From: Blattabacterium sp. (Blattella germanica) str. Bge | GTDB taxonomy: Bacteria > Bacteroidota > Bacteroidia > Flavobacteriales > Blattabacteriaceae | Direction: 5' to 3' | NCBI RefSeq assembly: GCF_000022605.2 | Contig: NC_013454.1 | Span: 558,001 to 622,000 of the forward strand | DNA: 64,000 nt | Part shown: in pieces, positions 2,547 to 55,852 of the stretch | Layout: the number at the start of each line of letters is the position of its first letter | How positions within the stretch are numbered: position 1 is the stretch's first letter | Made by a program: the position numbers and the translations under genes | The notes under the pieces: model-generated | What the model was told of the DNA's origin: nothing | The model's input: the letters and a program-made list of their open reading frames with translations, nothing else | Database searches by the model: none

Positions 2547-3428
2547 TTATTTTTTTTCATTTAAAGATTCTAATCCACTGATGATTTCAAGTATTTCTTT
2601 AGTTATTGTTGTTTGTCTTTCCTTATTGTAATTTAATACTAGATCATTTTTAATTTCAGATGCATTTTCTGTAGCTTTATGCATAGAAATCATACGTGCT
2701 GTATGTTCTGAGTAAGAAGATTCTAAAAAAATTTTTAATAATTTTGCATTTACAAATTTTGGAATCAAATAATCAAAAATTTCTTTTTGGGATGGTTCTA
2801 GAATATACTCAATTTCTGTTTTTTCTTTTTGTAAATCTACAGAGACTGGTAGTAATTTTTCTACAATTATTTCTTGAAACAAAGATTTTTTGAAATTGTT
2901 ATACATCAAATAAATAGAAGATACTTTTTTTTGAATAAAAATTGAAATGAATTTTTTTGTTAAAGTTTGTATTTTTTCATTACTTTTAGTAAAGTCATCT
3001 CCCCAATCAATCCAATTGTTATTTTTGTCATATATCTTATATCTTTTCACTAAAAAATCGAATCCTTTTTTTCCAATTGAAAAAAATATGCACTCATTAT
3101 GTGAGTATCCTTTTTTTTGAAACAATTGATTAATTTTTTCAAAAATTAAGGAATTAAAAGAACCGCATAATCCACGATTAGAAGTAAATACAATGAACAA
3201 TTTTTTTTTTTCTTCTTTTTCTAAGAAATATTTATTTTTTTCCAATTTTTCCGTTAACAAAAAATCTGAAATAAGTAATTCTATATGATCCAAATAAGTT
3301 TTTACATGTGTCAATAAACCTTTAGTTTTTCGTAGTTTTACGATAGAGATCATTTTCATAGCTTCCGTAGTTTTAATAACTGATTCTATAGATAATATTC
3401 TTCTTTTGATCTCTTTTGGATTGGACAT
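2547..3428 (-). CDS. atpG: ATP synthase F1 subunit gamma
   Basis: Central rotor stalk of F1F0 ATP synthase; its N- and C-terminal helices form the coiled-coil shaft turning inside the alpha3-beta3 ring. The 293-residue protein has the expected N-terminal helix (KEIKRRILSIESVIKTTEAMKMI) and the conserved SNRGLCGSFN motif near residue 84. The C-terminal helix carries SEHTARMISMHKATENA. It is the last gene of atpBEFHAG. The coding sequence contains a run of 11 T on the plus strand (3201-3211), that is 11 A in the sense strand, with the reading frame intact. Confidence 0.97.
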   Translation of the reverse strand: MSNPKEIKRRILSIESVIKTTEAMKMISIVKLRKTKGLLTHVKTYLDHIELLISDFLLTEKLEKNKYFLEKEEKKKLFIVFTSNRGLCGSFNSLIFEKINQLFQKKGYSHNECIFFSIGKKGFDFLVKRYKIYDKNNNWIDWGDDFTKSNEKIQTLTKKFISIFIQKKVSSIYLMYNNFKKSLFQEIIVEKLLPVSVDLQKEKTEIEYILEPSQKEIFDYLIPKFVNAKLLKIFLESSYSEHTARMISMHKATENASEIKNDLVLNYNKERQTTITKEILEIISGLESLNEKK

Positions 3429-3439
3429 AAAAAAAAATT

Positions 3440-5023
3440 TTAGGATACATATTTATTACTTAATTCCAAGGCTACTTTTTCCAATATTTCAGATATTTTA
3501 TCATCAAGGATTCCATCTTTTAATGAATTTAATAAATCTTCATGTTTTTCTTTTAAATAAAAAAGATATTCTTTTTCAAAATCTGAAATCTTATCAAGAG
3601 GAATATTTTTTAATATATTTTGAGTTCCAACATAAATTATAGCTATTTGATCTTCTATATTATACGGATAATGAGGAGGTTGTTTTAGTATTTCTATATT
3701 AATTTTTCCTTTTTTTAGAATTTCCATTGTAGATGGATCTAATTCAGAACCAAATTTTGAAAAAGATTCCAATTCTCTAAATTGAGCTTGATCTAATTTG
3801 AGAGTTCCAGATACTTTTCTCATAGATTGAATTTGAGCAGCCCCTCCTACACGAGAAACAGATATACTTTCATTGATAGCAGGACGTATTCCAGAATGAA
3901 ATAAATCTTTTTCCAAAAAAATTTGTCCATCTGTTATGGAAATTACATTAGTTGGAATATAAGAAGAGATATCTCCAGATTGAGTTTCAATAATAGGTAA
4001 AGCAGTTAAAGACCCTCCTCCTTTAACCTCTTTTCTAATAGATTCTGGAATATCATTCATTTTTTCAGCCATTTTTTGGTCTTTGATAATTTTAGAGGCA
4101 CGTTCTAAAAGACGAGAATGTAAATAAAAAACGTCTCCTGGATAAGCTTCTCTACCAGGAGGCCGTCGTAACAACAAAGAAATTTCTCTATAAGAAACAG
4201 CTTGTTTTGACAGATCATCATATATCACCAAAGAAGAGCGGCCTGTATCACGAAAATATTCTCCGATCGCAGTTCCTGAAAAAGGAGCAAAAACTTGCAT
4301 AGAAGCTGGATCAGAAGATGTAGCTGAAACGATTACGGTGTAAGACATAGCTCCCTTTTCTTGCAAAAGATTAGCAATTCTTGCTATTGTAGATCCCTTT
4401 TGACTAACTGCTACGTAAATGCAATAAACTGGTTTATTTTGTTCATAAAATTTCTTCTGATTGATAATAGCATCAATGGCTATAGTCGTTTTTCCCGTTT
4501 GTCTATCTCCAATAATCAATTCTCTTTGTCCTCTTCCTATAGGGATCATTGAATCTATAAACTTAATGCCAGTTTGAAGAGGTTCTTTGACTGGTTCTCT
4601 GTAAATAACACCTGGAGCCTTTCTTTCTAAAGGCATAGAAAATAATTTTCCTTCTATAGGACCTTTTCCATCAATAGGATTTCCTAATGTATCGACAACA
4701 CGACCTAACATGCCTTCTCCTACTTGGATAGAAAAAATTTTTCCTGTTCTTTGAACTACATCACCTTCTTTGATATCTTTTGATGAGTTTAGCAAAACAA
4801 TACTAACATAATCTTCTTCAAGATTCAAAACTATGCCTTTTACTTCGGTATTATTAAATTCTACCAATTCTCCATAAAAAGCGGAGTTTAGACCGAAGGA
4901 TCTAGCTACTCCATCTCCTACTTGAATAACAATACCAGATTCAGATAATTTTGATTCAAATTGAAAATTTGATAATTGTTCTTTAAGAATAGATGATATT
5001 TCAGAATATTTTAAATCTGACAT
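3440..5023 (-). CDS. atpA: ATP synthase F1 subunit alpha
   Basis: Non-catalytic nucleotide-binding subunit of the F1 hexamer. The 527-residue length and the order of domains are normal: N-terminal beta barrel, P-loop domain with Walker [10 protein letters not shown] near residue 172, and a C-terminal helical bundle. The alpha-subunit signature [17 protein letters not shown] lies near residue 385, including the arginine in SVSRVG that reaches into the neighbouring beta active site. It sits 11 bases from atpH and 11 bases from atpG in a tight operon. The catalytic beta subunit (atpD) and epsilon (atpC) are not in this window. Confidence 0.98.
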
Positions 5024-52937: not shown

Positions 52938-53318
52938 TCATATTCCAGTACTTCCAAAACCATTGCTTCCTCTTATGCTCGTATTTAAAATAGAACATGG
53001 TTCCCATTTTATTTGAGTTCCTTGAAATATGTTTACTAAAACTAGTTTTTCATTGGGTTGAATGATCATTGTTTCAAATAAAATGTTTGTTATAAGAATC
53101 TTTATTTCTTGACATAAAACCGTATTTTTTTCATATTTTGTAATATGAATAACGCAAATAGCTTCTATTAATTTTTGTTTCAAAAAAAAATGATACTTCA
53201 TTTTTTTGGAAAATTGAATCAAAATGCCTGTTGATATCAATTTTCGTTCCATTAAATTAATGGAAATAGATTTTTCTATATTAGCAATTAAAGTTAATTG
53301 ATATCCATTTTTTATCAC
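52938..53318 (-). CDS. dut: Degenerate dUTPase-like protein
   Basis: Homologue of deoxyuridine triphosphatase. The 126-residue frame starts at a GTG and aligns with the family along its length, ending in motif 5 as SIRGSNGFGSTGI. The other motifs are not recognisable: motif 1 (AGxDLxA) reads NGYQLTLIAN, motif 2 (RSG) is replaced by LKQKL, and motif 3 (GTIDADYRGE, with the catalytic Asp) by the region TKYEKNTVLCQE. Motif 4 reads NEKLVLVNI. The frame is open and there is no internal stop. It is probably inactive as a dUTPase, or repurposed. Neighbours (nucleotidyltransferase and flippase) match dut loci in flavobacteria. Confidence 0.75.
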   Translation of the reverse strand: MIKNGYQLTLIANIEKSISINLMERKLISTGILIQFSKKMKYHFFLKQKLIEAICVIHITKYEKNTVLCQEIKILITNILFETMIIQPNEKLVLVNIFQGTQIKWEPCSILNTSIRGSNGFGSTGI

Positions 53319-55608: not shown

Positions 55609-55609
55609 A

Positions 55610-55683
55610 TGATCACGACAGGACTCGAACCTGTAACCGACTGCTTAGAAGGCAGTAGCTCTATCCATTTGAGCTACGTGATC
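55610..55683 (-). tRNA. tRNA-Arg (anticodon TCT)
   Basis: Complete 74-nucleotide cloverleaf on the minus strand: acceptor GATCACG/CGTGATC, D stem GCTC/GAGC, anticodon stem ACTGC/GCAGT with loop CTTCTAA (anticodon TCT), T stem ACAGG/CCTGT with TTCGAGT, and discriminator A. CCA is not encoded. Last of three tRNAs in tandem, ending next to the clpP stop. It decodes AGA/AGG, the likely major Arg codons in this AT-rich genome. Confidence 0.96.
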
Positions 55684-55690
55684 TTATATA

Positions 55691-55765
55691 TCGGGGTAGC
55701 AGGATTTGAACCTACGATCTCCTGGTCCCAAACCAGGCGCGATAACCAAACTACGCCATACCCCG
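55691..55765 (-). tRNA. tRNA-Pro (anticodon TGG)
   Basis: Complete 75-nucleotide cloverleaf on the minus strand: acceptor CGGGGTA/TACCCCG, anticodon stem CCTGG/CCAGG with loop TTTGGGA (anticodon TGG), T stem GTAGG/CCTGC with TTCAAAT, and discriminator A. CCA is not encoded. It lies 7 bases from tRNA-Arg and 2 bases from tRNA-Ser, so processing from one precursor is likely. Confidence 0.96.
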
Positions 55766-55767
55766 TG

Positions 55768-55852
55768 CGGAGAATGTGGGATTCGAACCCACGCGGTATT
55801 TCTATACCGACAGTTTAGCAAACTGTTCCGTTAACCACTCCGGCAACTCTCC
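55768..55852 (-). tRNA. tRNA-Ser (anticodon GCT)
   Basis: Complete 85-nucleotide type II tRNA on the minus strand: acceptor GGAGAGT/ATTCTCC, anticodon stem ACAGT/ACTGT with loop TTGCTAA (anticodon GCT), and a long variable arm CGGTATAGAAATACCG. The T stem is GTGGG/CCCAC with TTCGAAT, and the discriminator is G, as expected for serine. CCA is not encoded. First tRNA after the promoter. Confidence 0.96.

Follow-up and report, generated by a model that had tools for sequence, protein, structure and literature searches.

Reciprocal motif loss in chromosomal and plasmid-borne dut genes suggests a split heteromeric dUTPase in Blattabacterium

The chromosomal dut gene of Blattabacterium sp. (Blattella germanica) str. 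Bge is located on the minus strand at positions 52938..53318 (stop codon included) of the window, that is, of the whole 64,000-nucleotide stretch of DNA that was analysed. Its product is called beta in the following, and the product of the plasmid-borne dut gene is called alpha. As the earlier note on this sequence had stated, the frame is intact: the gene begins with GTG and encodes 126 amino acids with no internal stop. Upstream, on the same strand, lies a gene for a polysaccharide flippase (PF01943; 53332..54804), whose stop codon is found 13 bases ahead of the beta start codon. The downstream neighbour, likewise on the minus strand, was assigned by Pfam to the sugar nucleotidyltransferases (PF00483; 51891..52907). 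The same two genes flank dut in most of the loci compared from free-living Flavobacteriales. Because the order flippase, dut and nucleotidyltransferase is conserved in this way, the chromosomal gene is, judged by synteny, the native dut, in which motifs 1-4 are degenerate and motif 5 is intact. Further along the window, at 55609-55852, the open reading frame calls are spurious; three tRNA genes (Arg, Pro, Ser) are found there on the minus strand.

A Pfam search with the single beta protein from the window gave no hit, and the beta orthologs reach at most 20.3 bits against PF00692, for which the gathering cut-off is 22 bits. The homology to Dut proposed in the earlier note is nevertheless confirmed by NCBIfam, by a profile search of the PDB and by profile-profile comparison. 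Two NCBIfam dUTP diphosphatase models match the window protein with 1e-10 and 4e-8, both under the curated cut-offs, and both models are matched by all 34 aligned beta orthologs. The PDB search with the ortholog profile retrieved dUTPases only (best 3e-14), and hhalign of the beta profile against an alignment of true Duts gave 99.4%. On these sequence comparisons it is certain that beta is a dUTPase homologue, far above chance. Sequence homology and predicted fold place it with the trimeric dUTPases, though under the Pfam gathering score.

The column alignment agrees with the description of motifs 1-4 as unrecognisable and of motif 5 as near-perfect. The remnant of motif 1 (53280..53297, minus strand) reads LTLIAN where Duts have GMDLRAN, and the active-site Asp is gone in 37 of 37 orthologs. 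At the position of motif 2 (53166..53189, minus strand) FFLKQKLI is found in place of (V/I)RPRSGLA, so that the RSG is missing. Motif 3 (53106..53147, minus strand) reads HITKYEKNTVLCQE instead of N(S/T)PGTIDADYRGE and has lost the catalytic Asp in all 37 proteins. The same is true for the Gln of motif 4 (53031..53057, minus strand), where PNEKLVLVN stands for (D/N)G(E/D)RIAQMV. The C-terminus RGSNGFGSTGI, in contrast, conforms to the motif 5 pattern RG..GFGS(T/S)G. It comprises R116 G S N G F121 G S T G125 (52944..52973, minus strand), of which R, F, G, S and G are invariant in all 37 orthologs. In most beta proteins Asn and Ser/Cys take the place of the two central Gly of this motif, and the Gly following the Arg is replaced in three lineages, one of them frameshifted.

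The genome of 640,935 bp consists of a 636,850-bp chromosome and a 4,085-bp plasmid. Its sole PF00692 match is the dut gene carried by the plasmid (positions 808-1197 of G000 contig 2). The alpha protein contains perfect motifs 1-4 (SSGMDLQA, IRPRSGLA, NNPGTIDSDYRGE and NGNKIAQI) and ends with KIKWIKNFK, short of motif 5. It scores 90.6 bits against PF00692 and 37.5 bits against PF22769 (DCD), and is therefore better matched by the Dut family than by the DCD or DCD-DUT proteins. All 11 distinct alpha proteins agree with a trimeric dUTPase in the invariant positions of motifs 1-4, and motif 5 is absent from all 11. We also looked for a motif 5 hidden in another frame or farther downstream. This possibility was rejected, since none of the 20 alpha loci, which encode the 11 distinct proteins, contains the motif, whichever reading frame of the sequence searched is considered.

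For comparison across the genus we used 37 species-level Blattabacterium genomes for beta and the 11 distinct plasmid-borne or integrated proteins for alpha. Counted by column, the R, F, G, S and G of motif 5 are present in 37 of 37 beta and in 0 of 11 alpha proteins. All 11 alpha proteins keep the residues that are invariant in motifs 1-4 (G, D; R, S, G; N, P, G, T, D, D, R, G; G, Q). In beta the count is 0-1 of 37, with two exceptions: 5/37 for the second R in motif 2 and 3/37 for the Tyr in motif 3. The comparison with other strains recommended in the earlier note thus reveals the same state of the chromosomal dut gene, motifs 1-4 gone and motif 5 kept, throughout the genus. As a control we sampled other Bacteroidota Duts, 80 of 80 of which contain motif 5. 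A scan with alpha, which gave other Bacteroidota only, was used as a further motif 5 control. In a separate scan of 296 genomes of the order, the matches listed outside the genus all reach profile position 128-129. The loss of motif 5 in alpha is therefore exceptional, and its interpretation as a common event was rejected. In the tree the alpha proteins form one group among the flavobacterial Duts with modest support (73/89), and the beta proteins form one long, fully supported branch.

No complete dut gene was found elsewhere in the genome, the only other PF00692 match being the plasmid gene without motif 5. A replacement by an all-alpha dimeric dUTPase (PF08761) was rejected as well, as no such protein was detected in any of the 12 Blattabacterium genomes searched, including the present one. 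The earlier note had suggested that a loss of Dut would raise dUTP and the uracil content of the DNA, which is unsupported because a second dut gene exists on the plasmid. It had also named a second intact dut as a finding that would speak against its reading. A second gene indeed exists, but it is not intact, since it lacks exactly the motif that beta keeps; this partial agreement points to complementation. For the ung gene, which was to be checked in the same context, the genome has an intact copy (C1:151197-151682, PF03167). In 10 of the 37 Blattabacterium genomes ung is missing, and in several others it is fragmentary.

Published Blattabacterium genomes for which plasmids are reported contain one plasmid with dut and nrdB (PMC6039017, PMC7453276). 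All 12 Blattabacterium plasmids in PLSDB encode dut, in each case adjoining genes annotated as VRR-NUC and as DUF1599/nucleotide-modification-associated. The gene for the ribonucleotide reductase beta subunit is found beside dut on 11 of the 12 and is omitted for Mastotermes, for which the PLSDB table is possibly incomplete. In two other Blattabacterium genomes the plasmid gene set is integrated in the chromosome. Alpha was found in 8 of the 37 species assemblies and is absent from the other 29. The plasmid-borne nrdB is missing from exactly the same 29 assemblies, 22 of which retain nrdA; for this reason the plasmid was probably left unassembled in these genomes, and a true loss of the plasmid is judged unlikely.

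The nrdB gene (L201, 2083-3165) codes for the beta subunit of class I ribonucleotide reductase and is found exclusively on the plasmid or where the plasmid is integrated, whereas nrdA belongs to the chromosome. This is a second important enzyme that is divided between the two replicons. In eight genomes (G006, G009, G010, G014, G017, G026, G029, G031) nrdA was not found or, in the case of G014, is broken, and G010 has nrdB on its plasmid although an intact nrdA was not found. The plasmid (L201, G000 contig 2) additionally carries at 3216-3671 a tandem array of a 31-bp repeat with 14.7 copies and 97% matches. The array is comparatively G+C-rich, is spanned by three overlapping open frames and is a possible replication or maintenance element.

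The beta gene is present in all 37 genomes of the genus examined, and its orthologs share 38-84% identity with the window protein. Its frame is open in 36 of them. The single exception is G002 (L052, around 1580-1615), where one frameshift occurs at an A9 tract and both halves are conserved, which could be due to a sequencing error, to decay or to an expression rescued by slippage. The invariant residues of motif 5 are encoded by synonymously varying codons. For 11 pairs of related genomes the pN/pS of beta ranges from 0.32 to 0.69, compared with a simulated neutral mean of 0.88-1.10 from a simple AT-biased model without indels, the pairs being treated as independent. The test for selection that the earlier note had proposed therefore places beta below the neutral mean in 11 of 11 pairs, in seven of them within the lowest 5%. 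Judged from these substitution patterns, beta is under purifying selection. The constraint on alpha is stronger (pN/pS 0.19-0.40). All 36 open beta orthologs have an available start codon near the beginning of the frame (TTG in 23, GTG in 8, ATG in 5), so the first available start is TTG or GTG and not ATG in 31 of the 36, which may indicate a low translation of the beta subunit.

Outside the active site, Dut columns are well preserved in beta (R 35/37, T 35/37, N 37/37, W 36/37). The spacing between the Trp of the last strand and the Arg of motif 5 is 11 residues in 35 of 37 beta proteins and in 18 of 20 normal Duts. The AlphaFold model of beta (pLDDT 81) shows a confident core of beta-strands, with values of at least 90 in 61 residues, and a poorly defined C-terminal arm. 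The PDB matches listed by Foldseek for this model are dUTPases with a TM-score of only about 0.54, and because of this low similarity to solved Duts the barrel is either changed or imperfectly modelled. Alpha was modelled with a pLDDT of 89 and matches solved Duts at TM-scores of up to 0.90. The matches listed for it are dUTPases and include the STOP mutants 5ect and 3i93 of the M. tuberculosis Dut. According to alignment and model, beta is still a Dut scaffold in which the structural residues and the length of the arm are retained.

In trimeric Duts the active site is built by motifs I, II and IV from one chain, motif III from the next and motif V from the third (PMC8961515). Without motif 5, kcat falls about 720-fold and the affinity changes roughly 3-fold; in engineered trimers where a single subunit is dead or has no motif 5, the remaining sites act independently and are fully active (PMC4827122). 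It is in our opinion quite probable that the plasmid-borne alpha and the chromosomal beta form an obligate heteromeric dUTPase, presumably an alpha2-beta trimer with one complete active site, so that this DNA-protecting enzyme would act solely as a mixture of the two chains. Alpha would bind dUTP and Mg and carry the catalytic Asp. Beta would fold as a catalytically dead dUTPase barrel that occupies one place in the trimer, and its C-terminal arm would reach across to supply motif 5, the Phe stacking on the uracil and other residues gripping the triphosphate. If motifs 1, 2 and 4 are provided by subunit i, motif 3 by subunit i+1 and motif 5 by subunit i+2, an alpha2-beta trimer would possess exactly one complete site, with motifs 1, 2 and 4 and motif 3 from the two alpha chains and motif 5 from beta. 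An alpha3 trimer would have three sites without a lid, and alpha-beta2 and beta3 would have no complete site. Given this canonical three-subunit geometry, alpha2-beta would be the only assembly that forms a complete site. The ATG start of alpha, encoded on a plasmid, and the mostly non-ATG start of the chromosomal beta would favour an excess of alpha, which would suit a 2:1 ratio.

The split appears to have a single origin that predates the divergence of the sampled Blattabacterium lineages. An additional dut gene of flavobacterial type on the plasmid may have allowed complementary degeneration, after which neither gene would be dispensable. With slightly less assurance, we still think it probable that a natural, obligate alpha2-beta dUTPase with its subunits on different replicons has been fixed since the ancestor of the sampled Blattabacterium, which would make the tiny plasmid indispensable as the carrier of the enzyme's catalytic half. 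The split-enzyme reading is based on the reciprocal loss of motifs, the conservation of both genes, their homology and the predicted fold. From these we infer the physical association of alpha and beta, the alpha2-beta stoichiometry and the dUTPase activity. In the literature searched, mostly without subscription journals, neither a heteromeric dUTPase nor a reciprocal dut loss in Blattabacterium was described.

Other readings have to be weighed against the heteromeric enzyme. The earlier note had left open whether beta is a decaying pseudogene in which motif 5 survives or a repurposed trimeric scaffold. On the first view the survival of motif 5 would be accidental. The fast divergence of beta, the lack of an ATG start in most orthologs and the one frameshifted lineage could be taken as signs of decay. 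However, in the same neutral simulation the chance of the frame staying open is 0.29 at most and falls, depending on the pair, to below 0.01 (zero of 300 runs), and that of keeping motif 5 lies between 0.42 and 0.003, while the frame is in fact open in 36 of 37 genomes, each of these with an available TTG, GTG or ATG start, in a symbiosis older than 140 million years (PMC2768785). On frame retention, neutral simulation, pN/pS and conservation of motif 5 the pseudogene was rejected and is considered very unlikely. The scaffold comes near to what we regard as the best explanation. If it had been recruited for an unrelated role such as nucleotide sensing or binding of a protein partner, motif 5 might serve as a phosphate-binding loop and the match to alpha would be coincidental. 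Such a role would agree with the loss of the catalytic motifs from a protein whose open frame and conserved core persist, and with the new conserved lysines (FFLKKKFI) and the CIIH stretch in beta, and catalytically dead Dut relatives with other roles are known from herpesviruses (PMC8961515). It would not explain, however, why alpha lacks motif 5 though it is under strong purifying selection, and the conserved length of the arm between the Trp and motif 5 is as expected for an arm that serves a Dut active site. We therefore hold an unrelated role of beta to be improbable.

It could also be that alpha alone is the working dUTPase, slow yet sufficient without motif 5, and that beta, which would have kept motif 5 by accident, is vestigial or has a minor modulating effect. 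DCD and DCD-DUT proteins naturally lack motif 5, Duts truncated in this motif keep a near-normal substrate affinity (PMC4827122), and the truncated M. tuberculosis structures (5ect, 3i93) are among the fold matches of alpha. But by its scores alpha is a Dut and not a DCD. Moreover, it would be left unexplained why beta has conserved just motif 5 throughout the genus, with synonymous variation of its codons, and why the losses in alpha and beta are exactly complementary. That alpha suffices on its own thus appears unlikely.

If the heteromeric alpha-beta dUTPase is real, it would be a clean natural case of complementary degeneration that distributes one active site between two genes, each on its own replicon, in a genome undergoing reduction. 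The retention of a plasmid of 3-4 kb by Blattabacterium would become easier to understand, and an apparently decayed gene would be seen to code for one half of an important enzyme.

Among known systems, the homotrimeric Duts (PF00692) from E. coli, human and M. tuberculosis are the obvious relatives. Alpha and beta are homologous to them, contain together all five motifs and match them in predicted fold, and the canonical trimer likewise builds its sites from three subunits. In Blattabacterium, however, the motifs are distributed between a pair of paralogous genes, one on each replicon, and neither protein alone has all five. The monomeric dUTPases of alpha- and gammaherpesviruses are reported to originate from a gene duplication and to assemble their single site from motifs located in separate regions of the polypeptide (PMC8961515). 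There one chain is involved and motif III is displaced, whereas here two chains would share the site, motifs 1-4 on one and motif 5 on the other. The dCTP deaminases and DCD-DUT proteins lack motif 5 like alpha, which nevertheless scores as a Dut. The engineered asymmetric human trimers WWS and WWN, with one subunit that is dead or without motif 5 and other sites that act independently (PMC4827122), are artificial covalent constructs; in Blattabacterium nature appears to have fixed the asymmetry, and the proposed enzyme would be the natural counterpart to these laboratory-made trimers.
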